Shown here in pieces: positions 30,846 through 49,361 of a stretch of 64,000 nt of DNA. Source of the stretch: a virus. The notes under the pieces are model-generated. The model had not been told where the DNA came from. It was given only the letters and a program-made list of their open reading frames with translations, and did not search any database. The stretch is from positions 62,001 through 126,000 of the IMG/VR virus record IMGVR_UViG_3300032309_001546. The stretch is one strand, 5' to 3'. A program made the position numbers and the translations under genes. Every line of letters starts with the position of its first letter. Positions within the stretch are counted from its first letter, which is position 1.

Positions 30846-30851
30846 AGGTTA

Positions 30852-30886
30852 TAAAAAGTGCTCCAGTTTACAGACATGGAGCAAGG
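30852..30886 (-). terminator. Intrinsic terminator closing the structured 30.9-31.45 kb segment
   Basis: TGCTCCA and TGGAGCA arms around a 10-nt loop, followed on the minus strand by CTTTTTAT. No gene ends nearby, so it would terminate a non-coding or long leader transcript. Confidence 0.7.
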
Positions 30887-30889
30887 TCA

Positions 30890-31450: not shown

Positions 31451-31470
31451 GACCTACTCAGGTCTGAGGA

Positions 31471-31677
31471 TTACACGAAGAAGCGACGAGCCACGTGAAC
31501 GGCCTCAATGAGAGACTCAGAACCAGTGCTGGCATCTTCCTCGTATTCCTCGAAATCGACAAACTCTTCAGGACTGTCCGGGCGATGGCTCCAGTCGATG
31601 CGGTCAATGACCTCATCTTCGCTACCGACAGGAATGTTGAAGCAATCCTCAAAAGACACGAACTCAACAGGGACCAT
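31471..31677 (-). CDS. Small acidic protein, 68 aa
   Basis: Begins MVPVEFVSFEDCFNIP, rich in Glu and Asp (EEFVDFEEYEEDAS). CGGAG stands 7 nt before the ATG. Unknown. Confidence 0.65.
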   Translation of the reverse strand: MVPVEFVSFEDCFNIPVGSEDEVIDRIDWSHRPDSPEEFVDFEEYEEDASTGSESLIEAVHVARRFFV

Positions 31678-33169: not shown

Positions 33170-36100
33170 CTACTTCTTACCCGTGATACGGTTAAGACGT
33201 GCCGCGACACCGGCCTTCTTCTCCGAGGGAGCAGGGGCGGGCTTCTCTTCAGCCTCAACCTCGGCGTCGAAGTCATTGGGATCGATGAAGATAATCTTCA
33301 GGCCCGACTCTTCAGCGTAATCAACCGCATTCTTTGTACCGCCAGTGCTGCCATCCCAGACAGCAATGACGATATCGGCGCAGTCAATCATCTGCATGTT
33401 ACGGCGCTGCATGCAGAACTTGTCTTCGCCATAGGTCTTCTCGCTGACCTGGACGACTTCGCTGGCAACTTCCAGCATGTTCCAGTAGCGCTGCTTGGCT
33501 TCGCGGGGCCACATAGCCTCCTGCTCTACACAGGGGATCATGACCGTGAACGGGATACCCATCTCGTGCGCAATCTCTGCCGCATCCTGGTCAACGCCAA
33601 GGGCACCGCCAGTGATTAGCCAGAGCTTCTCACCGTGCTTGGCAAGACCACGCTCAAGCTGAGCCGCAATCTGTTCACGTACCCAGATGCGCTTCTCCGC
33701 ATTGGGATTGTATCCGCCGATCTTGTCGGGACGGTGACCAGTGAAGGCCACAAAGAAGTACTCCGTCTCTTCGGCTTCAACTTCCTCAGTTGCAGCCGCG
33801 ATCTTAACCTTGAAGGGATCGACATACAGCATACCGGGCTTGTAGTCTGCATACCCTTCGGGGCGGTTGTTGTGGGTAGACTTCGCGCCCGCAGGAGGAT
33901 TCGGCAGAGTGCTGACATCCCGCTTCTGGATGTAAAGCATTACTCCATCAAGTCGGGCTTCGTCATACCAGGCTTGAGGGCCCTTCTGGCGGATCTGCCA
34001 CTCGCTAAGGTCAACGCTATCAGCATCAAACTCGATGTAGGGGCCATGGTCCCCGTACACAATGCGTGCGTACTCGGTTGCAATAATGCTTCCATTCGGG
34101 GTTTGGATTTCCCCATCAAAGCCCTGACCATCCTCACGGAGTCCGAGTTTGGCTTCGACTTCACGCTTGTCGGCTTCGCGATTAGGCAAACCAAGCGTTG
34201 TGGACTTGAAGTCTTCGGACTCTTCGTCTTCGGCAACAGGGCACACAGCGGCCATCGAGGGGCCATTGTCTTCGTATCTGGCTTCGCAGGTCGGGCAGAG
34301 ACCGGCCACGAAATCCCCCTCGACTTTGCAGTCCTCACAGGCATTTGTGCAAATGCGGCAGCCAGCGCCCTCGCACACTTCGCACACAGATGTGGGGATG
34401 GACTCTTCTGCTTCTTCCTCAGTCTTGTTGGCAAGGCGCAGCAGGACGTCAGCGTGGCAGGCTTCGGGTGCACAATGGCAAATCAACGACTTGCCAGTAA
34501 GTTCTCCGAGGCTATCCATGAGATTAACCTGTGCCTTCACCCAAGCCTCGTACTTGGCAATGACTTCCTCACGGTTGCCATCGCGGCCAAGGACGAAGGG
34601 ATTACCCCACTTGCTGGGACGGCCAACGTATACCGCACCGGAAGGAATATCCTTATCTGCCCGGTTGTAGACGGCAGGTGCAGCGTTAGCAACGACCGGA
34701 GCGCTAGCCTCAGTGGCTTCAGACTCTTCGTCTTCGCTGTCCACCCAGCAATCGGTGTAATCGAAGCGGTCGCTGCTCTTGGCCTTCTCGTCTTCCTCAA
34801 AGACCTCGGACTCTTCCTCTTCGTCACCGTACTGGCTAGGGTCGAAGTCCGGGTTCTCTTCACCGAAGTCCGGCTCTTCTGCATCTTCCGGCTCGGGCAT
34901 CTCGTCAGCGTCCTCCGAGATGTCATACTCGTGCGAGGGCTCATCCTCGTAACCCTCCTCGTACGTATCCTCTTCAGGCTCATCACCAGAGAAGACATCG
35001 TTGAGATCCTCTTCGCCTCCACCCTGAGGACCGTTGTCGTCGCCAAGGAAGGTGAGGATCAGGAAGCTGTTCAAGCCCTGAGGCGCGAACCTGGTGCCAA
35101 CAGCCACGGTGCGACCCATGACAGTTTTACCATTCTCGTCCTTGGTCTTGATGTCGGGGTTCCACTCGGTAACCCACTCACGCTCCACAAGCTCTGCCTT
35201 CACCGCAGTACCCGGGAAGATCTCGATCAAGCGACGCAGGAAACCGAATGAGTCAGCAGCTTCAAGCGTGCTCATAGCGTTGAAGCTGTCGAGCTCAGCC
35301 TGCGCTTCTGCGATCTTTGTCTCGCTGGGCTTCTTGGCCTTCTTCAAGTCAGCCAGTGCGTGACGAAGCTCCTCACCCTTGTTCTTCCGACGAAGCTCGA
35401 TCTGACGACCGATTTCGCTGACAGTCGCAAGCTGACCCTCAAAGCCATTGGCCTCTCGACCATCGCTGATGCGCACGCCGGGCAGGCTGAGAAGACCATC
35501 GATCCCCCAGCCAAGCTTCTCGCCGTCACCGCCGAAGCCACCGCAGTTCTTCTCACCACGGATGTAGGCGAGGAGAGCTTCTGCGTCCTGGCGTACCGTC
35601 GGGGTACCACCCTTGCCCAAGTAGAGAGCAAGCTGACGGGCTTCACCGAGGCTGTTATCGTCGAGGCCGTTGATTGCGGCAATGCCATTGCTGGACATCC
35701 AGTCCGTGAGGTATTCCCAGGGACCGCCGACGAAGAACGCAGTGGTAGCGATACCGCCATTCGCCTTAAGGTTGCCATTGGCATCCTCGGTGATGGTGAT
35801 CTCAAGAGCCTGTGGCTTCGCATCCTTGCCGACCTTCTTGGCCTTCTCAGCAGGCTGCAGGTAACGATTGGCAAAGGCAAGCCAGGCCATCTTCACAGCA
35901 GCGTCGCGGTCTTCAGCCTCAAAGTTCTTGAGGATGTACGACTCGATCTGGGAGTCTACGAGTTCAATCGCCGCTCTGATGGGCATCGCCGAGTAGGCCA
36001 GCCAGAGTGCCTTCTTGGCACGCGAGATGTTGCCGCCAGCCAGCATTGCACTGACGACCCTGTAACGACGGTTGCTCTCGTGGCCTGCAGGAGCCATGAT

Positions 36101-39100
36101 CTTGTGGATCAGTTCCTGGTTGGTCCAAGCCTGGAGGTTCTTGAAGCTACCGGGGCTCCAGTTCCAGTAGAGCCAGGCCTCGGTCTCTTCGCCAGGGGCC
36201 TCGTCTTCCGTGCGACCAAGCCAAGCAGTGAGCGTCTGGTGCAGGACGTTCTGGCGACCAGCTTCCCACTGAGCATTGGCGAGGGATTCGACCTCATCGA
36301 TGCACCACTGGCGGTAGTCAGCCCAGAGGGTGTAGACCTTCGAGCTAAGCTCACCAGCGACGAGGTGGGTAACGATCTCGCCTTCTTCGTTGCGGACGGG
36401 AGCGGTCACCTTCGTGCCATTCTCGAACAGGGGCTGCATGTCTTCACCGAGGACAGCAACACGCTTGGCCGGGTCGACGAACAAGCTCTTCGCACCAAGG
36501 CTGAGCTTCCGCAGAACGGCAGGCACGAATGCCCAACCTTCACGGCCCTTGCCTTCGGTGACAAGGTCAAGCCAGACCTGGTAGACCTGCACCATCCGGT
36601 AGGATGCCCAGGCTTCAGCGTAACCCGTCATCTTGACCGCTGCGTCAACGATGTCGGACAACGTCACGCCGAAGAGGAGCGTCTCGGAGATCTCCTCACG
36701 AAGCTCCTCGAGGAAGGTAGGCAGCTTCACCCAGCCAACAGCCAGGGACATGCCGTAGATCTTCGCGTTAGCGACGATACCAATCGCCTTCTGGAAGACG
36801 TTCTCCTCCATGTTCATCACCGACTCGTACAAGCTCTCGTGGCTCATACCAGCAGTGGTGGCTTCGACCGGCGCTTCGGGCTCCGTAACGGCGGTAATGA
36901 CGAAGTTCTCCGTCTTCACCTTGAAAGCCTGACCGAGGATCGTGGCCGCGTTGAGGCGGGTCCACAGGCTCTTGTTCTCCGGGATACCGGCGACCATCTT
37001 AGCACGGAGCGCGTTCTTCTGTGCACGCTTCTCGGCGTTGAGCTTCGCCTTATCAGCAAGAGCGGTACGCCAGGCCAGACCCTTCACGATGAGCATGGCA
37101 AGCTTACCACGCGCAGTGGGGCAGCGGTCATCATAGTCCATGCCTTCGTTTGCCTGGAGCAGGAGGACTACCGTGTCTCCGCTCGCCGTGGTGAACATGA
37201 TCACCATACGGCCGCTTACGCCGATGATGAAGATATTCAGGCTTTCCGGCAGCTCACGGATCTCCGCAACCGTGCCCGACGTTTCGCCGGTGGGGTTACG
37301 GAAGAAGATTGCCAGGTTGGGCGCGCAGTTGTTCTTCGCCCAGCGAGCAAAGTTGGTGCAGTAGACAATAAGACGACCATCAGCCGTCTTCGTCTCCAGC
37401 TCCATGGTCTGCTTCGCCTTCGTAGCAACCTCCTCAGAGTGCTGCCCTTCAGCAATCCAAGCCGCATGCAGCATCGGCCAGAGGACCGGGATGGGGTAGG
37501 TTGCCCACAAGTCGCTTCCCTCCTCGGTAACAGGAGCGATCTTCATCGAGCCAGGCTCAATGTTCTTGCTCAAGGTGCCAACCAGCTGCTGTGCCAGCAT
37601 GCGGAAGGGGAGAACAGGGATTCGCATCGCGCCGAGGAGCTTCGCAAGAACGCTGTTGCGGTTGTCCTCGACCTTGGCCTCTTCGTCGCCAGCAACGAAG
37701 TCGTCAGCATCCTCGTCCAGACCCTTCAGGAAGTCGGGGAGACGCTTCTTGGCGTAGGCGATGTAGCCAGCAATGAGCTGGTAGAACTCCTTCGAGTTGA
37801 CCTCAGCTCCGAGAAGCATAAGGATCGACTGAAGCGACATAACCGCCTTCTCCTTCGTGAGCGCCGCAGTGCCGGGGATCCAGCAAAGGGCATAGTCGTT
37901 CTGGGTAGCGGACCACTCGGTCTTCACCTCACTGGCAATGATGCAGACGCCTTCAGGGAAGTACCGAGCCGGAAGCGGGATGCACATACCCTTGATCAGA
38001 CCTTCGCTGGTCAAGATACGAGCCACCATCGGAGCGGTCAGACCCATGGCCTTCGCCACGTCGGCACGGACAAGCACAAGGCCGTCGAAGAACTTGACCA
38101 GTGCAGCGGCAATCTTGCCCAGGTCCAGGACCTTACCCGGCAGGACAACGCGGGCAGTAACCCGCGAGATCCAGTACGAGTCAGCATACTTAGCAATGCG
38201 GCCCAGGGTCTTACCCTTGAACCGCAGAGCCGCCATGCTGACCTTCTTGGCTTCGGGCGTGCAGTAGAGGGTCATACCCTTCTGCAGAACCCGAATGGTG
38301 ACAAGGCCAAGCTTCTTAGCGTTGGCCACGGCATCGGTATCGTCGTCAGCGACAACGAGACCTTCGAGGAGTCCAGGGCTATCGTCAGCCGCAGGACTAG
38401 TAGCACACGCCTCCTCAAGGAAGGCTGCGAACGTGCCGGGAGTGCATACCCGGACTTTCTTGTTACCCATCTTGTTCTCCTTAGGGGTGGGTGCCCCGGT
38501 GTGCTTCGTCGAGGCCAGGATGATTCCCGGCTTAACGGAAGCTTTGGTGTCGTTGTTGGTGCTGGTGGCTTCACCGTTTAGGTCATTGTTGACCTCGGCA
38601 AAGATATCCTCGCAAGCCGCCATAAGACGAGCTGCGATGGCTGAGATGGCGTCGCTGGGGATGCCGGCATAGAGGCGGTCATAGCCACCTCTCATGGTCA
38701 ACTCGGTACCGTCCGCCTGGCAGACATTGCAGAATTGGCCCTTTGAGCCAAATCCTGCAACACCGCAACCGACGCAGGTCTCGGGCCCGCAGTCGGCTTC
38801 GCTGGGCTTAGCCTTAACCATGGCCTCGAGCTTCGTCGCAAGGGCATTGCCCACTACAACGAACAGGATACCGACGATGCCGACGACAAACAGAAAGCCG
38901 GGTCCTGCAAGGAACTCGGCCGGGCTCTTAGCCCAAGCGGCTTCGACCGCCTGGCTGAACGTGGGTGCTGCAGCGGCGAGTACGGCGATAAGCGGGGAGC
39001 TGGCCTTCACCGCATTGCGGCGTTGGCGGCTCAGTTCCCGCTTTCTGGTGCGCTTCTGGGCATCCTCAGTCGCCGTCATGGCGAAGAAGACGCTTGCGGT

Positions 39101-39967
39101 ATCCTGTGCGGACTTGCCCGTGTTACCACAGACAGCGGCTTCGATGCGCTTGGCAAGGGTGGTCTTGATGACCACAATCTTAGCGCCGATAGCTACGGGC
39201 TTCACAGGAGTAACCTGCTTGGCCTTTGCCGCCGCGATGTGCGCCGAGAAGGTCATGGCCTTCGTGACGCGGGGGAATTTCGCGACGGGCTTCGCAGCAG
39301 CCTTAGCGACGGGCTTCGCAACGGGCTTGGAGGCAGCCTTGGGAGCAGGCTTTACAGCGGGCTCAGCGACGGCTTCCACTGCCACTTCCGTGACAGCAGC
39401 AACCTCGATGGCAGGGGCAGGGGCAGGCTTCACAGGAGCCTTAGCGACAGGCTTGGCAATTGCCTTCGGAGCGGGCTTGGCGACAGCCTTGGGGATATGG
39501 ACCCCCTTCGACCGCAGCCAGCGGTCAAGGCGGATAGTGGTCCAGCAGTTACGCCGGGCCAAACGGGCTGCATGGCGGGTAAGCGCCTGCAGCCTGAGCG
39601 ACGCCGCCGACTGGGCAGCAACAGTCCGCCGAAGCGGAAGGACGATGGCGTATACGTTCGCCAGAAAACGGGCCACGAAGGCCAAGATGACACGGACCAT
39701 GGGATGGTCCTTACCCTCCGCGAGGAGGATTGGGGTGGTCGGCTTCACCGAATTGGCAAAGCGGACCACGAGGGAAGCGGGGATGCGGGGAGCGATGCGG
39801 GTTGCAGCCTCCGTGACCAGCACGAAGCTGGTGACGAAGAAGCTGACTAGGGCAGCGGCCTGCTGCGAAAGGGTGGGGGCCAGCTGGGCCTCCACGGTCA
39901 GCGCCGTTGCGAAAACGGCGAACACCACAGCCACGATGGCGGTGATGGCGAGTTGGATCCGAGACAT
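33170..39967 (-). CDS. Giant multidomain protein, 2265 aa
   Basis: AGGAGGTAACTC precedes the ATG. Order of parts: hydrophobic segments at about 5-27, 38-58, 88-110 and 368-392; a Lys/Ala/Pro-rich repeat at about 160-260; and a zinc ribbon (CVGC-x10-CNVC) near 410-428. A long central region of unknown fold follows. An acidic Glu/Asp linker runs to about 1765. A DUF4326-type domain (YVGRPSKWGNPF, CHCAPEACHAD) covers about 1768-1855, followed by Cys-rich knuckles (CEVC, CRIC, CEDC, CPTC) at about 1858-1895. A YpsA/DprA-like SLOG domain (FTGHRP, ITGGALGVDQDAAE) occupies about 2065-2245. No single function follows from this. A second strong ribosome site lies at codon 500. Codon use is GC-rich compared with the structural genes. 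Confidence 0.85.
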   Translation of the reverse strand: MSRIQLAITAIVAVVFAVFATALTVEAQLAPTLSQQAAALVSFFVTSFVLVTEAATRIAPRIPASLVVRFANSVKPTTPILLAEGKDHPMVRVILAFVARFLANVYAIVLPLRRTVAAQSAASLRLQALTRHAARLARRNCWTTIRLDRWLRSKGVHIPKAVAKPAPKAIAKPVAKAPVKPAPAPAIEVAAVTEVAVEAVAEPAVKPAPKAASKPVAKPVAKAAAKPVAKFPRVTKAMTFSAHIAAAKAKQVTPVKPVAIGAKIVVIKTTLAKRIEAAVCGNTGKSAQDTASVFFAMTATEDAQKRTRKRELSRQRRNAVKASSPLIAVLAAAAPTFSQAVEAAWAKSPAEFLAGPGFLFVVGIVGILFVVVGNALATKLEAMVKAKPSEADCGPETCVGCGVAGFGSKGQFCNVCQADGTELTMRGGYDRLYAGIPSDAISAIAARLMAACEDIFAEVNNDLNGEATSTNNDTKASVKPGIILASTKHTGAPTPKENKMGNKKVRVCTPGTFAAFLEEACATSPAADDSPGLLEGLVVADDDTDAVANAKKLGLVTIRVLQKGMTLYCTPEAKKVSMAALRFKGKTLGRIAKYADSYWISRVTARVVLPGKVLDLGKIAAALVKFFDGLVLVRADVAKAMGLTAPMVARILTSEGLIKGMCIPLPARYFPEGVCIIASEVKTEWSATQNDYALCWIPGTAALTKEKAVMSLQSILMLLGAEVNSKEFYQLIAGYIAYAKKRLPDFLKGLDEDADDFVAGDEEAKVEDNRNSVLAKLLGAMRIPVLPFRMLAQQLVGTLSKNIEPGSMKIAPVTEEGSDLWATYPIPVLWPMLHAAWIAEGQHSEEVATKAKQTMELETKTADGRLIVYCTNFARWAKNNCAPNLAIFFRNPTGETSGTVAEIRELPESLNIFIIGVSGRMVIMFTTASGDTVVLLLQANEGMDYDDRCPTARGKLAMLIVKGLAWRTALADKAKLNAEKRAQKNALRAKMVAGIPENKSLWTRLNAATILGQAFKVKTENFVITAVTEPEAPVEATTAGMSHESLYESVMNMEENVFQKAIGIVANAKIYGMSLAVGWVKLPTFLEELREEISETLLFGVTLSDIVDAAVKMTGYAEAWASYRMVQVYQVWLDLVTEGKGREGWAFVPAVLRKLSLGAKSLFVDPAKRVAVLGEDMQPLFENGTKVTAPVRNEEGEIVTHLVAGELSSKVYTLWADYRQWCIDEVESLANAQWEAGRQNVLHQTLTAWLGRTEDEAPGEETEAWLYWNWSPGSFKNLQAWTNQELIHKIMAPAGHESNRRYRVVSAMLAGGNISRAKKALWLAYSAMPIRAAIELVDSQIESYILKNFEAEDRDAAVKMAWLAFANRYLQPAEKAKKVGKDAKPQALEITITEDANGNLKANGGIATTAFFVGGPWEYLTDWMSSNGIAAINGLDDNSLGEARQLALYLGKGGTPTVRQDAEALLAYIRGEKNCGGFGGDGEKLGWGIDGLLSLPGVRISDGREANGFEGQLATVSEIGRQIELRRKNKGEELRHALADLKKAKKPSETKIAEAQAELDSFNAMSTLEAADSFGFLRRLIEIFPGTAVKAELVEREWVTEWNPDIKTKDENGKTVMGRTVAVGTRFAPQGLNSFLILTFLGDDNGPQGGGEEDLNDVFSGDEPEEDTYEEGYEDEPSHEYDISEDADEMPEPEDAEEPDFGEENPDFDPSQYGDEEEESEVFEEDEKAKSSDRFDYTDCWVDSEDEESEATEASAPVVANAAPAVYNRADKDIPSGAVYVGRPSKWGNPFVLGRDGNREEVIAKYEAWVKAQVNLMDSLGELTGKSLICHCAPEACHADVLLRLANKTEEEAEESIPTSVCEVCEGAGCRICTNACEDCKVEGDFVAGLCPTCEARYEDNGPSMAAVCPVAEDEESEDFKSTTLGLPNREADKREVEAKLGLREDGQGFDGEIQTPNGSIIATEYARIVYGDHGPYIEFDADSVDLSEWQIRQKGPQAWYDEARLDGVMLYIQKRDVSTLPNPPAGAKSTHNNRPEGYADYKPGMLYVDPFKVKIAAATEEVEAEETEYFFVAFTGHRPDKIGGYNPNAEKRIWVREQIAAQLERGLAKHGEKLWLITGGALGVDQDAAEIAHEMGIPFTVMIPCVEQEAMWPREAKQRYWNMLEVASEVVQVSEKTYGEDKFCMQRRNMQMIDCADIVIAVWDGSTGGTKNAVDYAEESGLKIIFIDPNDFDAEVEAEEKPAPAPSEKKAGVAARLNRITGKK
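38470..38485 (-). promoter_or_regulatory. Internal ribosome-binding site at codon 500 of the giant gene
   Basis: AAGGAGAACAAG directly before an in-frame ATG at 38470 (MGNKKVRVCT). Spacing is ideal, so a 1766-aa shorter product is likely made. Confidence 0.6.
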
Positions 39968-40004
39968 GAGTTACCTCCTAGTCAACGGGGTCCAGCGCGA
40001 TCTA

Positions 40005-40205
40005 TAGGGAAGCATTCCCTATGACCGACATACCAGTGTCTTGTAACACACTGGAAGATTTCTGGTCCTTTATGGGAAGGACCCTGTTTAAAACCCTGGC
40101 TTTCTGTTCGCTCCGGCATTGACCCATACTACCTTCTTGGAAGATACTGGGGTGCCATTCGAACTATCCGGCCCATTGCGACCACCCCTTAGCAGAGAGC
40201 TGGTC
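40005..40205 (-). promoter_or_regulatory. Structured 5' leader of the giant gene
   Basis: About 240 nt between promoter and ATG hold a chain of hairpins: ATAGGGAA/TTCCCTAT at 40012-40030, CCAGTGT/ACACTGG at 40032-40054, GGTCCTT/AAGGACC at 40063-40082, and GACCA/TGGTC at 40179-40205. It may control translation or mRNA stability. Confidence 0.5.
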
Positions 40206-40212
40206 CACATTT

Positions 40213-40242
40213 TAGCCCATAGTAGTGCAACTATTTAAGTAT
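40213..40242 (-). promoter_or_regulatory. Promoter cassette for the giant gene
   Basis: ATACTTAAATAGT, then TATGGGCTA on the minus strand, immediately after a short terminator hairpin at 40258-40269 with T6. Confidence 0.6.
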
Positions 40243-40257
40243 CGTACAAAAAATACC

Positions 40258-41815
40258 CTTCCTGGGAAGTTCATTAAAACACTTACACACCCAGTGTGCA
40301 GTTTGCTCAACGCATAAATTACTAGTCTGATACTTGTTAACAGACCAGCGATCTATACGCCGTGAACCCATCCAGGGACGCCAGGAGCCTTGCCTCCGTC
40401 CTGGGATTAGCTTCGCACATTAGCATGACATAAAGCGTTTTATCCCTTAAAGGATTCTTGCGCTGCAGTCTTCTTCTCCCACTACATTACTAGACTAGAG
40501 GTTCAATGGGCCTCTATGCTAGGGATCTTGCCGCCGAATTGCGCGAGAAGATATAACCATCCTACTCCTTTTGAGAGCAAGAGCATCTAGTAATTACCTG
40601 ACCTATGTGTAGTTATCTATGGGCAAACAGATCCTAACAAGAACTGAACCTCTGGCAGCGGTTTCTTGTTAGTTTAGGCGTACAAGCGCCTATCCCCTCT
40701 TATACGTGCATGCCTGGCAGTCATCACATACTAATTGGGGGCTGATCTTTTGCTTGCATAGTGATTTGGGTTCTTCTTACCAGTAAGAGCGGCGCTACTC
40801 GCTAAAACCAGTATATAGGGTGTTTATAACCCAATCCAAATGCAAACGGCTCCTCGGTATTTCAACCGAATCACAGCCTTCTACAAGTGTCAAGTGTGGG
40901 AGTCAAAGACACAGCATCCTTCTTGGGACGCTTTGTGTCATACTTCTGTTACGAAGCTAAAGCAACGAATCTCACCATCTCACAGACCAGGTCCTGTCTA
41001 CACAGTAATCAACTGTATAGCGGTTATCTGATCTGTCCTCGTTGATTCCTCGTTATCTCTGCAGAAGGGCTACCGCTTAAAGTAGAAATCCTCCTGGATA
41101 ACTTGGTCCACCGGCCACACCTGCTAGAGTGCGCCTACTCTGTCTCACGACAGTTGGGGAATTATGCAGCATTTACTCTGTAAAAACAGGGAAAGGGTTC
41201 AGCACTTGCCGCCTTGCTTAAGGGCGGGAGTTTGCCTATCACGAGATCTGCTTGTGTCGGTTTTGCGGGGTGTTTTTGTTGAGGTTCCCCTTTTGCCTCC
41301 TTTTTTAAAGTCCGTACTCTCTTTCGAGGACAACAGACTTAGTGCGCGTAATCAACGCTTGGGAAAGTTAAAACCCATATAGTCATCTTTGGTGAGGGAT
41401 GACGCCCTACTGCCGACAGGCAGACCCCTAAAATCTCTATTAGCCATACTTGACATCCACACCACCGACATATTAGGAGCTTTCGCCCCCGGAAGAACTG
41501 TTCCTCCTTGGTGTTTCAGTCTGTGTTGCAGGCCGTACGAGATCTTAGGTTGACAGTTTTTCTGCTACCGACTTTTAGGGATTGCTCCCTCCGCCGGATT
41601 TATGCAGGAACACAGTTTTGGCTGTTAGCCTAGCTGCTTATACTGTCCTCGTGTCCTCTCCGACCATCCACCTTTGGGCATGGCCAGATACTGCACAAGT
41701 CAACGAACCGGTAAGATTCGTTGCTTATTTTTTATGGGGCGTTAACTACGTGCAAAACCTTGCCAACGCTGATCCCCACATATGGTCACTCCATATGTTT
41801 AAGACTCCACTGTTT
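40258..41815 (-). ncRNA. Candidate long structured non-coding transcript, about 1.6 kb
   Basis: No plausible gene occurs, yet the segment is bounded by the same promoter cassettes (41817-41904) and by a terminator-like hairpin with T6 at its minus-strand end. Strong stem-loops include CTAACAAGA/TCTTGTTAG at 40634-40671, GACACA/TGTGTC near 40908-40938 and TCGGT/ACCGA near 40854-40869. Others are GTCTG/CAGAC near 40325-40345 and a GGAG/CCTCC-topped hairpin at 40370-40404. The size and ornate folding recall phage-encoded GOLLD and ROOL RNAs; identity is not established. A possible plus-strand terminator (GAGG/CCTC then CTTTTTT) sits near 41280-41308. Confidence 0.55.
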
Positions 41816-41816
41816 A

Positions 41817-41861
41817 GCCCATAGTATTCTTTTGACGACTATTTTTGGACTATTTGAGTAA
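41817..41861 (-). promoter_or_regulatory. Promoter cassette (downstream copy) for the 1.6-kb non-coding unit
   Basis: Minus strand TACTCAAATAGT, a second AAATAGT, then TATGGGCTA. Confidence 0.5.
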
Positions 41862-41873
41862 AGTAAAACAATT

Positions 41874-41904
41874 TAACCCATAACTATACAACTCTTTGAG
41901 TATT
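41874..41904 (-). promoter_or_regulatory. Promoter cassette (upstream copy) for the 1.6-kb non-coding unit
   Basis: Minus strand AATACTCAAAGAGT, then TATGGGTTA. The preceding hairpin GCCC-GCGTTAA-GGGC with TATTTTTT (41905-41932) terminates the MazG-like gene. Confidence 0.5.
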
Positions 41905-41999
41905 AGAGAAAAAATAGCCCTTAACGCGGGCTAGACGTGCTTTTCTGTTCCCAAGAAGCAACTCTCGGATGGGCACCACCCCATCAGGCACCTCCCGTT

Positions 42000-42287
42000 T
42001 CAGGGAGACGGGCACTCCCCATCTTTGAGGTGACGCTTGCTGCGCACACAGCCGTATTCGGCCATGCGAGCCTCCACCTTGCGAAGGTGAAGAGTGTCAC
42101 CCCAAACCGAGATGTAGGGTTTATTAGCCAAAGCTCCGAGAAGCCGGCCAATTCCCCACATCACGTCGGAAGCCTCGTCCTTGAGTTCTTCAAGGTTTTT
42201 AACCTCGAAAAGCTCTACTGCCTCTTCGGCAATATGGACGATAGCAACCCGGATGGGAAGCACCTCAAGACATTTACAGAAATGCAT
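42000..42287 (-). CDS. MazG-like NTP pyrophosphohydrolase-fold protein, 95 aa
   Basis: Possible nucleotide pyrophosphohydrolase of the all-alpha MazG/dUTPase-like superfamily. The metal motif EExxE...ExxD is visible: AEEAVELFEV near residues 20-29, followed by LKDEASDVMWG near 36-46. AAGGAGTCTACAG precedes the ATG. It is short, about one MazG domain. MazG homologues cleave (d)NTPs; the MazZ branch makes dGMP for Z-DNA phages. Which applies here cannot be told from the sequence alone. Confidence 0.65.
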   Translation of the reverse strand: MHFCKCLEVLPIRVAIVHIAEEAVELFEVKNLEELKDEASDVMWGIGRLLGALANKPYISVWGDTLHLRKVEARMAEYGCVRSKRHLKDGECPSP

Positions 42288-42357
42288 CTGTAGACTCCTT
42301 GTGGTAATGCTGTATGCAGTACAGCGCTGTGAGTAAAAGGATCTTTACTTCACTGTT

Positions 42358-42419
42358 TAGCCCAGACTAGTGTACTATTTAAGTATGTTTCAAAGAATGA
42401 CCCATCTTGCGATGGGTCA
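42358..42419 (-). promoter_or_regulatory. Terminator-promoter cassette upstream of the MazG-like gene
   Basis: Hairpin TGACCCATC/GATGGGTCA (42398-42419) with TTCTTT, then ATACTTAAATAGT and TGGGCTA on the minus strand. Confidence 0.6.
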
Positions 42420-42445
42420 CTCAGTGATGTCTCTCTTCCCTTTCT

Positions 42446-42808
42446 CTACTTCCGCCAGGCCCCAGTACGAGCCTCGACCACAGTCTTGAGGTTGCAGTAG
42501 AGGTTGCCCACCGCATAGCGGCAGGGGGTAGCGGTGGTCAGCCAGTCCTCGTTGGACTGAAGGTCGGGACCCTTGGCCATGGCCAGAGAGTAGCGAGCTT
42601 CCTCTGACAACTGGCATTTGGCCAGAGTCTTGCGGTGCACCGAGACCTTGACGGTGTCGATCTCGCCGCTGAAAGAAGCCGCCACGTGGTTCCAGCCGAT
42701 GGCCTTGAGGGCCTCGACGATCTCCGTCTTGTAGACCGAGACGGGAAGGGTGGGGGGGAAGGAGATAAGGAGCGCGCTATCCGTCACATCATTGATCTTC
42801 TTGCACAT
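42446..42808 (-). CDS. Hypothetical protein, 120 aa
   Basis: Start at 42808, with GGAGGAAACC before the ATG. Begins MCKKINDVTDSALLISFP. Alpha/beta-looking small protein with no known motif; GC-rich codons. Stands alone between terminator-promoter cassettes, with a leader hairpin GGCAG/CTGCC near 42845-42865. Confidence 0.65.
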   Translation of the reverse strand: MCKKINDVTDSALLISFPPTLPVSVYKTEIVEALKAIGWNHVAASFSGEIDTVKVSVHRKTLAKCQLSEEARYSLAMAKGPDLQSNEDWLTTATPCRYAVGNLYCNLKTVVEARTGAWRK

Positions 42809-42874
42809 GGTTTCCTCCATTGGAAAGGCGGTGTGGCGCACCGTGGCAGGGGGTAGAATCTGCCATCTTCTAGT

Positions 42875-42928
42875 TCATAGTAGGACTATTTAAGTACTAT
42901 AGATTACTTACCCCACCTTGCAGTGGGG
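42875..42928 (-). promoter_or_regulatory. Terminator-promoter cassette upstream of the 120-aa gene
   Basis: CCCCAC/GTGGGG hairpin at 42911-42928, then AGTACTTAAATAGT and TATGAAC on the minus strand. The hairpin lacks a long T run. Confidence 0.55.
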
Positions 42929-42953
42929 CTTTCATCTACCTCAACCTCAGCTC

Positions 42954-43100
42954 TTAGTCCTGCATGCAGCTCCACGAGATGCCGATCCAGGACAGGATCA
43001 GAAGACCCGCGCAGACCGGCTCCATCACGCCAGAGCCAAAGCTCCAGCCGAGGGTGCAGGTTGCGAGGAGGAAGCTGGCGGTAGCGATTGCATTCTTCAT
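42954..43100 (-). CDS. Small membrane protein, 48 aa
   Basis: Encodes MKNAIATASFLLATCTLGWS, then a second hydrophobic stretch, so probably two membrane helices or a signal plus helix. GGAGAATGTC precedes the ATG. Unknown role. Confidence 0.6.
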   Translation of the reverse strand: MKNAIATASFLLATCTLGWSFGSGVMEPVCAGLLILSWIGISWSCMQD

Positions 43101-43159
43101 GACATTCTCCAGTTTGGCATCATTCTTTACGAAGTGTAAAGCTATGTATGCCCACAGCC

Positions 43160-43217
43160 TAGCCCATACTACTATTTGTGTATCCTAGAAAAGATAGCCC
43201 ACCTCCTCAGGGTGAGC
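43160..43217 (-). promoter_or_regulatory. Terminator-promoter cassette upstream of the 48-aa gene
   Basis: GGCTCACC/GGTGGGCT hairpin, where a G-T wobble pairs only in the minus-strand RNA, then ATCTTTTCT, ATACACAAATAGT and TATGGGCTA. Confidence 0.6.
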
Positions 43218-43244
43218 CATCCTATCTATCCTCAATCGCTCTAG

Positions 43245-43424
43245 TTACTCGCTGCGGTCAGCAAGCCAACCACCACGACGCACCGACTGGCGGCACGCGA
43301 GGCAGTCACAGCCCCAAAGGGCGTCGGCGATGTCGCTTTCCCAGGCAAACTCCTCTTCCTCCGTGAGGAGGACGATGAGCTCGATCTGAAACAGGGCGAG
43401 GATCTTGACAAGAATCTTGTCCAT
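43245..43424 (-). CDS. Small protein, 59 aa
   Basis: Start at 43424, with AAGGAGTTAGCC before the ATG. Begins MDKILVKILALFQIELIVLL, a hydrophobic segment, then acidic residues and a CDCLAC pair. Probably membrane-associated. Unknown. Confidence 0.6.
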   Translation of the reverse strand: MDKILVKILALFQIELIVLLTEEEEFAWESDIADALWGCDCLACRQSVRRGGWLADRSE

Positions 43425-43476
43425 GGCTAACTCCTTTACGAGTGGGGACGACATTATCCCAAAGCTGGCCAAAGAT

Positions 43477-43531
43477 TAACTCATAGCAGTACAACTATTT
43501 ATGTATTGTCGATTACTTACCCCTTACGGGG
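43477..43531 (-). promoter_or_regulatory. Terminator-promoter cassette upstream of the 59-aa gene
   Basis: CCCC/GGGG hairpin at 43520-43531, then AATACATAAATAGT and TATGAGTTAA on the minus strand. Confidence 0.55.
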
Positions 43532-43549
43532 CTTTCGTCGGGTTGCTCT

Positions 43550-43810
43550 CTACTTGTCGCCGCATACCGGGAGTGGCGTGCCGTTAGGCACGTCACTCAT
43601 CGGGTGTGGGTGAGTCGCAGAGAAGTCTACAATCCACCACCGCCAACGGGTTTCCCCGCTAAGGCTGCAGTCGATCTCAACAAGCTCGTCCTCAACGCAG
43701 TACCCAGCAACCTTCGGCTCGATCGTACCGGTGGTCGGCACGGGGAGCGTGTTGTTGCTGGAGCAAGCGGTGAGGAGCGAGGCAAGCAACGCGATCTTCA
43801 ACTTATCCAT
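43550..43810 (-). CDS. Predicted lipoprotein, 86 aa
   Basis: Start at 43810, with AAGGAGATCTC before the ATG. The N-terminus MDKLKIALLASLLTACSSNN is a lipoprotein signal with lipobox LTAC (Cys16). The mature part has two further Cys and Trp-rich segments (WRWWIVDF). It could be an outer-membrane spanin subunit or a surface-exclusion lipoprotein; no family is recognised. Confidence 0.68.
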   Translation of the reverse strand: MDKLKIALLASLLTACSSNNTLPVPTTGTIEPKVAGYCVEDELVEIDCSLSGETRWRWWIVDFSATHPHPMSDVPNGTPLPVCGDK

Positions 43811-43852
43811 GAGATCTCCTTTCGGTTTGGGTGACATTACCCATCTCACCGT

Positions 43853-43906
43853 TTAGCCCATAGGACTGTTTAAGTATTGTTCAAAGAATAGCCCGCCTAA
43901 GCGAGC
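43853..43906 (-). promoter_or_regulatory. Terminator-promoter cassette upstream of the lipoprotein gene
   Basis: GCTCGC/GCGGGC hairpin with TATTCTTT, then ATACTTAAACAGT and TATGGGCTAA; a GGGT-AATGTC-ACCC leader hairpin follows. Confidence 0.6.
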
Positions 43907-43934
43907 CACTCGATGATGCAGTCTACCTCATCCT

Positions 43935-44135
43935 CTAGTCATCGAATCCATACTGCCAAAACAGCGAGGACACGATGGCCATGCCGATCAGCACGATCGT
44001 TGCGAACGTGCCGAGAGCGTTGAACAGGTTCTCGGGGCCGGCGACCCGAAGCCAGTTGTCCATGAGGCAACCAGCGAAGAACATATTCAAGAGGTGAACG
44101 AAGACGCGGACAATGTTCCAGAGAACCTTAACCAT
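43935..44135 (-). CDS. Small membrane protein, 66 aa
   Basis: Start at 44135, with AAGGAGTCTGTC before the ATG. Two hydrophobic stretches (VRVFVHLLNMFFAGC and FATIVLIGMAIVSSLF) make it a likely two-helix membrane protein. Unknown. Confidence 0.62.
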   Translation of the reverse strand: MVKVLWNIVRVFVHLLNMFFAGCLMDNWLRVAGPENLFNALGTFATIVLIGMAIVSSLFWQYGFDD

Positions 44136-44192
44136 GACAGACTCCTTTCTAGTAATATTCCCCAACGAAATGCGGGGCTATATCACCACACT

Positions 44193-44256
44193 TTAACCCA
44201 CACTACTTGAACTATTTAAGTACAGTAGAAAAGATAGCCCACCTTGCGGTGAGCCA
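44193..44256 (-). promoter_or_regulatory. Terminator-promoter cassette upstream of the 66-aa gene
   Basis: GGCTCACC/GGTGGGCT hairpin with ATCTTTTCT, then GTACTTAAATAGT and TGTGGGTTAA on the minus strand. Confidence 0.6.
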
Positions 44257-44276
44257 GAGCTTCCCTGATTGTGGAC

Positions 44277-44567
44277 CTAAGGCTTGTTAGCCAAGTGGTC
44301 CGTGATGGCCTTGCTGTTGCCCTGCGAAGGGCAGCACCCAAACTCGCGGAACCAGTAGTCCCGCTTGTTATGCCACTTCTTCTTGGCGGCCTTCTTCCGA
44401 GCCTCGCTTGCCTTTTTACGGGCAGCACGGACAGAGGCGCGAATCTTGCGAGCCTGCTGACGAGTTTCCTCGTCAACAAGCCCGCAGAACAGGATCATGA
44501 AACCCGTTCCTGCACCCCCGAGAAGAATGACGGCGAAAATCAATCGCAACCACATCATCGAGTCCAT
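44277..44567 (-). CDS. Membrane-anchored basic protein, 96 aa
   Basis: AAGGAGGTTTGTT precedes the ATG. One N-terminal membrane helix (LRLIFAVILLGGAGTGFMIL) is followed by a very basic helix full of Lys, Arg and Ala. The tail may bind nucleic acid or ribosomes at the membrane. Unknown. Confidence 0.65.
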   Translation of the reverse strand: MDSMMWLRLIFAVILLGGAGTGFMILFCGLVDEETRQQARKIRASVRAARKKASEARKKAAKKKWHNKRDYWFREFGCCPSQGNSKAITDHLANKP

Positions 44568-44634
44568 AACAAACCTCCTTTACGTTAGGTTAGCGCTCTG
44601 CGAATCTGCAGTTTACGCCATGTCATGTCACCTT

Positions 44635-44686
44635 CTAAGTCATACTATTTAAGTATCTTAGAAAAAATGACCCGTCCAAAGACGGG
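44635..44686 (-). promoter_or_regulatory. Terminator-promoter cassette upstream of the 96-aa gene
   Basis: CCCGTC/GACGGG hairpin with ATTTTTTCT, then ATACTTAAATAGTATGACTTAG on the minus strand, where the two elements abut. Confidence 0.6.
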
Positions 44687-44725
44687 CCATGTTCCCTTGC
44701 CCACCCTAAGGTGAGCCGTTGCTCT

Positions 44726-44968
44726 TTACCTGAACGGAACGTACAGGTAGAGAGCGCGACGATTGAACCCAGTCGCCTTGTGGATGCTCGCGAAGAGCCG
44801 GTATTCCGGGGGCGAGCTGGTCATGGCGCTGTAAACGCCACGTGCGACCTGGTAGCCGCATCTGCTCCCGCGGTTCTCGAAGGCAGTCCAGGCCGCAGCC
44901 TGAGACAGCCAGTCGAGAAGACGATCCTCCTCTGTCTTGGGGGTCGTCTCGTTGGTGTTGTTGCTCAT
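44726..44968 (-). CDS. Hypothetical protein, 80 aa
   Basis: Start at 44968, with AAGGAGGATAAA before the ATG. Begins MSNNTNETTPKTEEDRL; helical, soluble, ends in a basic aromatic stretch. Shares a GGCAG/CTGCC leader hairpin with the 120-aa gene. Unknown. Confidence 0.62.
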   Translation of the reverse strand: MSNNTNETTPKTEEDRLLDWLSQAAAWTAFENRGSRCGYQVARGVYSAMTSSPPEYRLFASIHKATGFNRRALYLYVPFR

Positions 44969-45029
44969 TTTATCCTCCTTGAAGGTTGCAGTGTGGCGCA
45001 CTGGGCAGGGGGTAGAATCTGCCATATAT

Positions 45030-45097
45030 TAACTCATAGCAGAACTCTGTAAGTATTAGAGAAGAAATACCCCACCCTAGCATAAGCCAAAGTGGGG
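45030..45097 (-). promoter_or_regulatory. Terminator-promoter cassette upstream of the 80-aa gene
   Basis: CCCCAC/GTGGGG hairpin with TATTTCTTCT, then AATACTTACAGAGT and TATGAGTTAA on the minus strand. Confidence 0.55.
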
Positions 45098-45123
45098 CAA
45101 TCCTCTAGTCCATCAACCAGTTA

Positions 45124-45351
45124 TTACCAGTTGAAATCCTGCTCAACATGATGGAGCACCTCAGTGCCAAACACGCTGAACCGAATCAACAGTCGAAGGC
45201 GCACAGGGGTGCCACCCTCGATGCCGTGGTGCTGCAGCCCAAAGGCCACAAGATTCTTCCACCCACGGCCGGGGTGGGGAGTGGTGTCAATGACAACACC
45301 GTTCACCATGGTCTCAACCTCAAGCAACTGCATCTCGGTCGTGATCATCAT
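45124..45351 (-). CDS. Hypothetical protein, 75 aa
   Basis: Start at 45351, with GGAGGATAAG before the ATG. Begins MMITTEMQLLEVETMVNG; strand-rich. Unknown. Confidence 0.62.
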   Translation of the reverse strand: MMITTEMQLLEVETMVNGVVIDTTPHPGRGWKNLVAFGLQHHGIEGGTPVRLRLLIRFSVFGTEVLHHVEQDFNW

Positions 45352-45441
45352 CTTATCCTCCATTGAAAAGGAAGGGAATTTCACCCCACCCGAGAACACT
45401 CTCAGGATTTGAAGTTCATAGAAAATTTGAACCTCCACACT

Positions 45442-45498
45442 TTAGCTCATACTATTTAAGTATATAAGAAAAGATGGCCCATCCTCTCGGACAGGCCA
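45442..45498 (-). promoter_or_regulatory. Terminator-promoter cassette upstream of the 75-aa gene
   Basis: GGCC/GGCC-ended hairpin with ATCTTTTCT, then ATACTTAAATAGTATGAGCTAA on the minus strand. Confidence 0.58.
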
Positions 45499-45551
45499 CC
45501 TAAGCTAATACAAGCTGACTCAAGGGCTCAAAGGATCAAGCTCTCAATCAA

Positions 45552-45752
45552 TCAATGCCAGGGATTACGCCCAGCAGGATTGAAGAAGCCGCGACGGGCG
45601 CACTCACGCTTGATCTCCTCGCGCCTCTCTTCCATATCCCGGCAGTAGCTGTTGCCCCAGCCGTACTGGCTGTGGAAACGGACATCATCCGCGAGAAGGT
45701 TGACGGAAATGAGGGAATTGCAGTTCCGAATCTCAATCTTCAACTTATCCAT
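45552..45752 (-). CDS. Hypothetical protein, 66 aa
   Basis: Start at 45752, with GGAGGTTTGCC before the ATG. Begins MDKLKIEIRNCNSLISVN; charged C-terminus with CARRGFF. Unknown. Confidence 0.62.
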   Translation of the reverse strand: MDKLKIEIRNCNSLISVNLLADDVRFHSQYGWGNSYCRDMEERREEIKRECARRGFFNPAGRNPWH

Positions 45753-45806
45753 GGCAAACCTCCAGGTTGAAATCACTCCTATGAAATATAGGTAGTGTGC
45801 CAAATG

Positions 45807-45861
45807 TTAACTCATAGTAGTACTCTGTTAGTATGTTAGAAAAGATAGCCCCCGAAGGGGC
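45807..45861 (-). promoter_or_regulatory. Terminator-promoter cassette upstream of the 66-aa gene
   Basis: GCCCC/GGGGC hairpin with ATCTTTTCT, then ATACTAACAGAGT and TATGAGTTAA on the minus strand. Confidence 0.58.
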
Positions 45862-45892
45862 CAGAGCTTGACCAGAGCGTGAGCTCTAGTTA

Positions 45893-46156
45893 CTACTTGT
45901 ACATCGCCTTAATGAAGGCGTTCTCGATGGCGCGAACCAGCTGCCAGCTCGCGTTCATCTCCTTGTCCAGGTCCCAGGAGGAACCGTCCTTGGCCTCGAT
46001 GTCCTTGAGGCGGGAGATCTCGACCTTGATCGTGCTAAGCGTGTTCCGAAGCTCCTCATGGGAACCCTCTTTGATACCGTTGTTGTCAACAGAATCATTG
46101 AAGGTTGCCCAGCAGGTCTCCGCAATCTCGCTCATCTGGATCATGCTCTTGTTCAT
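45893..46156 (-). CDS. Hypothetical helical protein, 87 aa
   Basis: Start at 46156, with CGGAGGATAAG before the ATG. Begins MNKSMIQMSEIAETCWAT; all-helical, charged. The leader has the GGGTGAAATTCCC-type hairpin. Unknown. Confidence 0.63.
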   Translation of the reverse strand: MNKSMIQMSEIAETCWATFNDSVDNNGIKEGSHEELRNTLSTIKVEISRLKDIEAKDGSSWDLDKEMNASWQLVRAIENAFIKAMYK

Positions 46157-46244
46157 CTTATCCTCCGTTGGTTGGAAGGGAATTTCACCCTGCCCGAGAC
46201 AATTCCCAGGACTTGAAGCTAGTAAGATTACCAACTCCCACATG

Positions 46245-46300
46245 TTAACCCATAATACTATTTGAGTATCTTAGAAAAGATAGCTCGCCATTACAGCGAG
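46245..46300 (-). promoter_or_regulatory. Terminator-promoter cassette upstream of the 87-aa gene
   Basis: GCTCGC/GCGAGC hairpin with ATCTTTTCT, then ATACTCAAATAGT and TATGGGTTAA on the minus strand. Confidence 0.6.
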
Positions 46301-46313
46301 CCAGAGCTAATCT

Positions 46314-46670
46314 CTAACGCCAGTTGTGAACAATGCTGAACCAGGGTTGAACCAGGTCAGCCGGAAGCTCCTTGTGGAGCTTATCCGTGATTTCCCTCCA
46401 CTCCAGCATGTGCTGGTAGCGGATAGAGGACGGGATCTCACGGTTGTAGCCGTGGAACCCCTCAAACCAAGCGACGAACACCTGGATATCCTCTGCAGTA
46501 GCCTTGCGAGCCTGATCCCTAATCTCCTCAAGGGAGACCTGGGCAGCAGACTTGACGGCAGGAGCAACGTTGACAGTCTTGACGCTCTCCTTCCCGAAGG
46601 GGAAGAAAAGAGTAACAAGGCCGACGACGAAGCAAAGAGCCATCAAAGCGACAAGAATAACGTTCAACAT
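46314..46670 (-). CDS. Membrane-anchored protein, 118 aa
   Basis: AGGAGGTTTGCC precedes the ATG. N-terminal membrane helix MLNVILVALMALCFVVGLVT, then a soluble helical domain with Trp residues (FVAWFEGFHGYN, EWREITDKLHKEL). Likely exposed in the periplasm or cytoplasm from the inner membrane. Unknown. Confidence 0.66.
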   Translation of the reverse strand: MLNVILVALMALCFVVGLVTLFFPFGKESVKTVNVAPAVKSAAQVSLEEIRDQARKATAEDIQVFVAWFEGFHGYNREIPSSIRYQHMLEWREITDKLHKELPADLVQPWFSIVHNWR

Positions 46671-46724
46671 GGCAAACCTCCTGGTTGAAATCGTTCCTAT
46701 GAATTATAGGTAACGTGCCACAAG

Positions 46725-46779
46725 TTAAGTCATACTATTTGTGTATGTAAGAAAGAATGACCCACCTTGCGATGGGTCA
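46725..46779 (-). promoter_or_regulatory. Terminator-promoter cassette upstream of the 118-aa gene
   Basis: TGACCCA/TGGGTCA hairpin with TTCTTTCT, then ATACACAAATAGTATGACTTAA on the minus strand. Confidence 0.6.
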
Positions 46780-46789
46780 CTCAATCAGG

Positions 46790-46981
46790 CTACAGAGAGA
46801 AGTATCTCTGTGACCACACGACGGACAGGCTGTTCCACGTACCCCAGGTCAGGGTGCTATGGCGGGTGTGCTTGTCCATGCTGCGGTCGATGACATCAAG
46901 CTCCTTGCGGGAGACTGCCGAAGCAATCTCTTGAAGGAACTTCTTTGCCAGGTACTCATTAGACGCGACATTGATTCTCAT
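46790..46981 (-). CDS. Small protein, 63 aa
   Basis: Begins MRINVASNEYLAKKFLQ; GGAGATAGACA before the ATG, leader hairpin GGGTAATTTCACCC upstream. Helical, soluble. Unknown. Confidence 0.6.
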   Translation of the reverse strand: MRINVASNEYLAKKFLQEIASAVSRKELDVIDRSMDKHTRHSTLTWGTWNSLSVVWSQRYFSL

Positions 46982-47018
46982 TGTCTATCTCCATGAAGGG
47001 TGAAATTACCCACATACT

Positions 47019-47071
47019 ATCCCATACTATTTAAGTATAGGAGAAAAAATGACCCATCTCTCGATAGGTCA
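47019..47071 (-). promoter_or_regulatory. Terminator-promoter cassette upstream of the 63-aa gene
   Basis: TGACCTATC/GATGGGTCA hairpin with ATTTTTTCT, then ATACTTAAATAGTATGGGAT on the minus strand. Confidence 0.6.
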
Positions 47072-47573: not shown

Positions 47574-47639
47574 GATTGACTCCAAGACAAAGGGCGGAAT
47601 TGCCCACACACTAGCCCATAACGGTACAGGCGGTCGATC

Positions 47640-48038
47640 CAAAGGGGGTGGGCTAAAACGAATAGGGGGTACACATCTTTACCAGGCGGGCTATATAGAG
47701 TACCCACTCTTTTCCGAAAAAAAATATATTAATTATATATATCCAGATATATAGCCTGTCTTTAGATTGCTCTTTTCCAAAAAAAATATATATAAATATA
47801 TAAGCCTATATAGAGTTCTTTAGGCAAGTCTACGTCCCCTTTTCAGACCTATACCCCCTTTTCCCCTAGCTTTCCCACTAAGTGTTTTCTCAAAATATAT
47901 ATAGAGGTTTTCCCCTATACTATATATAGGACTTTTCCTTATACATATAAGGTCTTTCCTTAAATAATATTTAAGGTTTTTTCCTTTTCCCTATATAGCG
48001 TCCCTTATGGTATCAAGTTAATAAAGTTTAAACTTAGT
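47640..48038. promoter_or_regulatory. AT-rich divergent intergenic region with palindrome series
   Basis: Separates the minus-strand early-type block from the plus-strand structural block. It is rich in ATATAT and TATATAG. Three palindromes, each followed by a pyrimidine run, lie at 47914-47930 (CCTATACTATATATAGG), 47937-47952 (CCTTATACATATAAGG) and 47958-47976 (CCTTAAATAATATTTAAGG). No gene is visible. An origin, packaging start or divergent promoter is possible. Confidence 0.55.
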
Positions 48039-49361
48039 TTGATTACTAGTAAGAAGTACTCTGTTTTGGCACACTATAACGACATTAATAAGGCTAATAA
48101 TAAGAAGCCTAGGTCTTCACACGATAATAGTGCTGGGCGGGGAGTTGATAACCCATATAAGAATGCAGAGAGACTAGCTCAACCTACTTATACTGGAACT
48201 ATCTCTGGACAAGTTATAGATCCTTATACTCTTAAGAATAGCTTAGAGTTTTCAAGTAGGGAAGAGGAGATGCCTTTTGACTTGCAAGCTCTTTCTGAAG
48301 AAGAAAATGTTAATGTTATAGAGAGCGCAAAGGGCCTTCCTACTAGGGGTCTTGCTATCAGTGAGGATAAGTCCTTTACTAAGACTGCTAGTCTCTTAAA
48401 GGACTCTAGTCTCGTCTCTGGCAATCATAATACTAATGGTCTTGGCGGCGTGGAGGCCAGTACACAAATACTACTTGATAGAGTTGGGGAGCTTTTAGAT
48501 AACGATGAAACATTACTGGAAAGAGCTGAGCCCCTTGATCATACTTCTTCTACTTCTATCTCTCTTAAAGATGCTTTTCAAAGTGCTTTAGACGCCAGTG
48601 ATCCTAATACTATAGATGTTAATGCTTTCTTCTCTAGCAGTAGTCTTGGGACTTTTCTTGGTAGTGATCCTGATCTATATAAGGACTTGCATATAACACC
48701 TCAGAGTGCCGCTAGAATGAGGTCGCATCTTGCCGCCGTTAAACATGGTACTTATGCTAGTGTGCCTCTTATCTGTAAAGGATATGAGAGTTGCCCCATT
48801 CGCAGCTCATGTTGGTTTGCTGTTAAGAAGGACAATGGAAGTATTGATCTTGCCTCTAGTAAATTCCCAGTACTGCAACCTTGCCCGGTAGAAGCTAGTA
48901 TTCTTCAGGTTAAGGTTAAGCAATACTGCAGTGAGAACTTTAGAGATATGAATAACATTACCCCTAGTGTTATTAGCTTGGCTACCAAGCTTGCTGAACT
49001 AGATATCTATGAGATCCGGGTTAATATGCTGTTATCTCAAGGTGACAGCCTTGGCGAGGGTAGAGACTTAATGCAGGAGGCCGTGCTAAGTAGCGACTTA
49101 CATGGTAATCCTGTTAAGACTGCGATGAAAGAACATCCTGCTTTTGCGTTGAAGGAACGCTTTCAGAAGATGCGTAGTCAATTGATGAAGGAACTTTTAA
49201 GTACTCCAGAAGCTAAGTTAAATGCGAGGGCTAAGATGGAGTCTACTAAGGTTGAGAGTGTTAGTTCAACAATGACAAAAATGTCTGCTGCATTAAGTAA
49301 GATTAATAGTTTAATAAGAGATAATAAAGATAGTGATCCTTTTGATTACGAAGATGATTAG
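48039..49361 (+). CDS. Hypothetical protein with Cys cluster, 440 aa
   Basis: First gene of the structural block. The best start is a TTG at 48039; no Shine-Dalgarno is seen, so the start is uncertain. Around residues 247-290 there is ICKGYESCPIRSSCW, and later PCPVEAS. This spacing, C-x5-C-x5-C ... C, suggests a metal-binding site. The rest is acidic and helical with a coiled-coil end. It could be a small-terminase-like or packaging cofactor given its place four genes before the large terminase, but no homology is recognised. Confidence 0.6.
   Translation: MITSKKYSVLAHYNDINKANNKKPRSSHDNSAGRGVDNPYKNAERLAQPTYTGTISGQVIDPYTLKNSLEFSSREEEMPFDLQALSEEENVNVIESAKGLPTRGLAISEDKSFTKTASLLKDSSLVSGNHNTNGLGGVEASTQILLDRVGELLDNDETLLERAEPLDHTSSTSISLKDAFQSALDASDPNTIDVNAFFSSSSLGTFLGSDPDLYKDLHITPQSAARMRSHLAAVKHGTYASVPLICKGYESCPIRSSCWFAVKKDNGSIDLASSKFPVLQPCPVEASILQVKVKQYCSENFRDMNNITPSVISLATKLAELDIYEIRVNMLLSQGDSLGEGRDLMQEAVLSSDLHGNPVKTAMKEHPAFALKERFQKMRSQLMKELLSTPEAKLNARAKMESTKVESVSSTMTKMSAALSKINSLIRDNKDSDPFDYEDD

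Follow-up and report, generated by a model that had tools for sequence, protein, structure and literature searches.

A candidate new class of giant structured noncoding RNA in the early region of an uncultured phage

We analysed a window of 64,000 nucleotides (bases 62001-126000 of the 145,919-base record of an uncultured phage) and conclude that a unit of about 1,560 nt without a protein gene most probably specifies a noncoding RNA that is giant, structured and of a new class. Such an RNA would function in the early phase of infection, either free-standing or as an RNA-protein particle. We give this reading a probability of about 0.65. Since the RNA is encoded on the minus strand, its start lies near 41820 and its end near 40250. 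The initial annotation had suggested a large ornate RNA at this place, and this is still the best reading of the segment in view of its strand-specific fold, an architecture that is robust to the folding parameters, the lack of coding capacity and the promoter-like cassettes of its own.

No gene had been seen in the segment, and our analysis agreed with this. The longest ORF on the minus strand has 44 codons, compared with a median of 66 and a 5th percentile of 46 in shuffled sequences, and the longest ORF preceded by a Shine-Dalgarno-like motif has only 16 codons. The stop-free segments of both strands gave no significant match in Pfam or PHROG. Thus, translation of the region, which would have spoken against an RNA, finds no support in the ORF and protein-family searches. 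Across about 1 Mb from 13 records of related phages, no run without an ORF of at least 85 aa is longer than the interval 40008-41936. This comparison rests on the ORF-free measure (ORFs of at least 85 aa) and not on the gaps left by a simple gene caller; the large gaps that such a caller reported in relatives were in part missed genes (terminase, GC-rich early genes).

The segment is part of an early array on the minus strand at 40-47 kb, in which about 14 units each open with the same promoter-like cassette (TACTTAAATAGT...). The TACTTAAATAGT box was located at 15 minus-strand positions (40241, 41860, 41902, 42385, 42896, 43182, 43505, 43876, 44222, 44655, 45055, 45462, 46268, 46745 and 47037). 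Exact matches to it occur seven times in the genome, all within the array block, and were absent from 20 shuffles of the genome. Throughout the cassettes (40214-47037, minus strand) the box is followed by a TATGGGYTAAA-like box at a variable spacing of about 0-27 nt, and because of this variability the arrangement is a poor fit to an ordinary two-box sigma-70 promoter. Most TACTTAAATAGT boxes lie directly downstream of a terminator-like hairpin. With lengths of mostly about 290-800 nt, the units generally carry one small ORF each; these small neighbours are orphans and therefore offer no functional hint. The giant-RNA unit is the sole protein-free one in the array. Cassettes resembling those of the neighbouring genes had been described at its start, and TACTTAAATAGT-like boxes were indeed found on the minus strand at 41902 and 41860, 1.6 kb ahead of the next box at 40241. 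The two boxes, this distance and the absence of an ORF together point to a minus-strand transcription unit. A scan for the TACTTAAATAGT box detected no cassette internal to the segment. When viral contigs were scanned with the promoter pattern, only the same virus was recovered, plus two chance matches within unrelated coding genes.

The hairpin with a T run that the initial annotation had placed at the end of the unit was confirmed in part: the hairpin exists and is followed by a U6 run at the usual place, but its stability does not exceed that expected by chance, and the terminator hairpins of the neighbours reach -10 to -17 kcal/mol in comparison to -5.0 kcal/mol here. In view of this weak hairpin, the 3' end is less secure than any other part of the giant RNA.

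Features of the giant-RNA unit and its flanks, in window coordinates. RNA position i corresponds to window position 41821-i.
Feature	Position	Strand	Basis
Promoter-like cassette 1 of the RNA unit (TACTCAAAGAGT...TATGGGTT)	41875..41902	-	box matching
Promoter-like cassette 2 of the RNA unit (TACTCAAATAGT...TACTATGGGCT)	41816..41860	-	box matching
Exact-consensus cassette of the next unit (leader and 2265-aa gene, 33170-39967)	40214..40241	-	box matching
Intrinsic terminator between the RNA and the upstream gene (42000-42287), to which it belongs	41915..41933	-	-10 kcal/mol
Terminator-like CUUC/GAAG hairpin with U6 run, weak	40248..40270	-	-5.0 kcal/mol, z -0.01
Putative giant noncoding RNA, begins GGGCUAAACAGUG, ends UUUUUU; exact ends inferred	40248..41820	-	z -12.6, no ORF above 44 codons, flanking cassettes
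5' hairpins, RNA 23-85	41736..41798	-	pair probabilities 0.86-0.98
Domain I, RNA 96-860 (765 nt), closed by a 17-bp helix, 96-112:844-860	40961..41725	-	p 0.97; retained with every parameter set tested
Tight four-way junction in domain I, 168-173:576-581, 174-179:264-269, 272-282:384-394, 396-401:570-575; linkers 0-2 nt	41240..41653	-	predicted fold, parameter-robust
A-rich, weakly structured internal segment, RNA 514-560	41261..41307	-	local z -0.1 in 41050-41349; unpaired runs
Domain II, RNA 861-1414 (554 nt), abutting domain I	40407..40960	-	predicted fold, parameter-robust
Outermost closing helix, RNA 13-20 (41808-41801) with 1430-1437 (40391-40384)	40384..41808	-	p 0.89, Turner 2004
3' terminal domain, RNA 1445-1560; 12-bp + 9-bp hairpin at 40362-40308	40261..40376	-	predicted fold

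The many strong stem-loops reported for the segment proved to lie far beyond chance. The minimum free energy (MFE) of the minus strand at 40258-41820 was -586.4 kcal/mol, compared with -471.6 kcal/mol (sd 9.1, best -491.7) for 60 dinucleotide shuffles of the whole length (z -12.6). The plus strand of the segment reached -498 kcal/mol (z -6.0). The same method gave z -3.4 for E. coli 16S rRNA, and z -1.5 to -5.9 for five same-length window controls that were mostly coding and for which few shuffles were used. Local windows of 300 nt had z-scores of -3 to -4 across most of the segment, and since these windows reach only about -4, the folding signal is global. When pairing was limited to spans of 150 nt, the MFE was -502.5 kcal/mol, so that 84 kcal/mol are gained in the unconstrained fold. 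The fold contains four GNRA tetraloops (shuffle mean 0.47, maximum 2) and 12 helices of at least 9 bp (shuffle maximum 8), 67.4% of the bases are paired (shuffle maximum 64.5%), and 60 of the pairs are G-U. With the Andronescu 2007, Langdon 2018 and Turner 1999 parameters 82-90% of the pairs were kept, compared with 31-70% for shuffles, and all main helices were retained except the outermost helix joining the 5' and 3' ends. The predicted fold is well supported, and the segment is exceptional and very likely functional as RNA; the function itself is an inference.

The predicted RNA would fold into two large domains with long-range closing helices and an accessory 3' domain. A long stem with interruptions (861-871:1404-1414, 877-885:1391-1399, on to 919-925:1339-1345) closes domain II. 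The outermost closing helix was lost in three other parameter sets and is thus uncertain. The predicted RNA also has a palindromic loop, CUUAAG. This loop and the A-rich segment are compatible with oligomerisation of the modelled RNA and prove nothing of it.

The initial annotation had left open whether the RNA belongs to a known class or to a new one. Searches of Rfam 15 with cmscan (gathering threshold and E ≤5, permissive filters, both strands) returned no relevant family. The covariance models of GOLLD, ROOL, OLE and HEARO gave no match on either strand at E ≤5, and those of group I and group II introns found none either; the flanks consist of promoter cassettes and a terminator, with no exons. 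Thus, the RNA is not recognisable as GOLLD, ROOL, OLE or an intron. The lone weak Rfam match, TCL6_2 (E 0.72), was attributed to chance. The only other copy of the RNA lies on one identical contig (35 kb without a difference), and no diverged homologue was detected among viral contigs, GTDB genomes, phages and plasmids. A blastn search of phages and plasmids gave no match to the giant RNA, and searches that used back-translated patterns of several of its stretches, the flanking proteins or the late gene beside the early region found no copy beyond the identical contig. Single-sequence covariance models of two subdomains found no match in 17 related records. The identical copy gives no covariation signal. 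The pattern searches reach close relatives only, and diverged homologues may therefore exist. By every search made (Rfam, viral contigs, GTDB, phages and plasmids), the predicted RNA is new as a class.

Natural ornate phage RNAs known so far reach up to about 830 nt, and the RNA-only cages are larger than the ribosome. GOLLD forms a homo-oligomeric nanocage (14-mer) and is commonly, although not universally, located beside a tRNA island. The giant RNA shares general properties with ornate RNAs, as it is long and without coding capacity and has elaborate structure beyond chance. GOLLD (833 nt) and ROOL (env-120, 659 nt) are phage RNAs that assemble into RNA-only cages and each contain a disordered internal linker; the level of GOLLD rises during lysis, and GOLLD bound ribosomes in pull-downs (Nature 2025, PMC12286853). 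Like GOLLD, the giant RNA is phage-borne, noncoding, very large, ornate and organised in domains, and it has an internal unstructured linker, which in its case is predicted. However, it is about 1,560 nt long versus about 830 nt for GOLLD, roughly twice the length, and lies away from tRNA genes, which are located at 7.0-9.8 kb and 27.3 kb, the nearest 13 kb off. ROOL is likewise phage- or prophage-borne, ornate and multi-branched with a disordered linker (that of the giant RNA again being predicted) but is less than half as long. OLE RNA (about 600 nt) is also large, structured and ORF-free, whereas it is bacterial chromosomal and part of a membrane-associated RNP. The sequence models of all these named families failed to match, and the giant RNA can at most be likened to the mode of GOLLD and ROOL by analogy.

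According to the proposed mechanism, leftward (minus-strand) transcription would start from the two tandem early-type promoter cassettes. The size of the fold and the tandem early cassettes would fit a stable and abundant early RNA that most likely acts in trans, as a free-standing RNA or RNA-protein particle comparable to the RNA-only cages of GOLLD and ROOL. The narrower proposal, namely that the class is unrelated to GOLLD, ROOL and OLE, about twice their size, and operates during early infection as an autonomous ribosome-scale RNA or RNA-protein particle, has in our judgement roughly balanced chances. The formation of a particle, taken as a step by itself, is suggested by analogy and is possible rather than probable.

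The segment could alternatively be a huge structured 5' leader of the 2265-aa gene that is reached by readthrough of the weak terminator and regulates the gene in cis. This fits the weak hairpin and the location of the giant gene next downstream on the same strand; however, an exact-consensus cassette stands at 40241 between the RNA and the gene, as it does ahead of other array units, and a two-domain fold of 1.5 kb far exceeds the needs of any leader, which makes this explanation unlikely. It is quite improbable that the segment yields several small RNAs or leaders through processing or internal promoters with the long-range pairing being incidental: although most 300-nt windows are structured on their own (z -3 to -4), the segment has no internal cassette, the unconstrained fold gains 84 kcal/mol over the one limited to 150-nt spans, and the long-range helices persist under parameter changes. 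The possibility that the region is a mere set of leaders, raised at the outset, is thus unsupported.

We consider it more improbable again that a highly diverged GOLLD or ROOL was overlooked by the Rfam models. The phage-borne, large and ornate character with an internal A-rich unstructured segment would agree with such an origin, as would the domain lengths of 765 nt (I) and 554 nt (II), which come close to the 833 nt of GOLLD and the 659 nt of ROOL (PMC12286853), but no match appeared up to E 5 with permissive filters, the whole length is about double and no tRNA cluster is adjacent. A DNA-level element, such as an origin or a site for packaging or recombination, with hairpins that function in the DNA itself, would account for the folding of the reverse strand beyond chance (z -6.0); the strong strand bias (-586 versus -498 kcal/mol), the 60 G-U pairs within the fold and the promoter cassettes directed into the segment render it very improbable. 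Least probable of all is that a gene has decayed here or that the segment represents a self-splicing intron devoid of an ORF. The large size and the accessory location could be cited for this, but Pfam and PHROG show no protein-family trace, no Rfam family matches (group I and group II introns among them), the flanks are formed by promoter cassettes instead of exons, and decay could not produce a z-score of -12.6.

If the reading as a giant noncoding RNA of a new class is true, it widens the class of ornate phage RNAs to about 1,560 nt and to an early array rather than a tRNA neighbourhood, and suggests that giant RNAs can serve as early-infection factors. With a folding signal above that of 16S rRNA by the same measure, the RNA would be a large target for cryo-EM. 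The analysis also suggests that, even without an alignment, RNAs of this kind can be detected by folding a single sequence, provided that shuffles, a comparison of the two strands and perturbation of the parameters are added.

A second structured RNA of the same phage was found in the early region on the same strand, extending from 30838 to about 31540 (about 500-700 nt). Its gene-free part at 30838-31470 (633 nt) has an MFE of -237.6 (z -13.5). Parts of this RNA are present in four relatives at about 80-87% identity, and in a module of 120 columns four pairs are changed on both sides (compensatory). Modules are repeated within it, and its 3' end resembles a T-arm (UAUGGGUUCGAUUCCCAUA). It has no Rfam match, and no sequence similarity with the giant RNA was detected. 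The presence of a structured RNA in the early region of this clade makes a second, larger one more believable. A sub-threshold match to the nadA riboswitch at 31587-31644 (minus strand; 25.9 bits with a gathering threshold of 37.5, E 0.002), in or beside a small ORF, may be due to chance.

The terminase of the phage is just 22-30% identical to those of isolated phages and 81-95% identical to that of about 18 other IMG/VR contigs, several of which were read whole. The early region of about 8 kb is bounded by a late gene running rightward (440 aa, 48039) and by the leftward 2265-aa gene (33170-39967), and relatives either lack it or have other content there. As the giant-RNA unit lies in a region missing from relatives, it is accessory and perhaps recent. 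Towards its C-terminus, the early 2265-aa protein contains a DUF4326 domain and a YpsA/SLOG domain, and giant genes of 1497-3763 aa occupy the matching place in relatives. The leader of the 2265-aa gene, about 245 nt long (39968-40214, minus strand), itself has several strong hairpins. An AT-rich non-coding stretch with a series of hairpins (47600-48045; AAGGAAAAAACCTTAAATAT...), which separates the early array from the divergent late genes, is perhaps an origin or control region.
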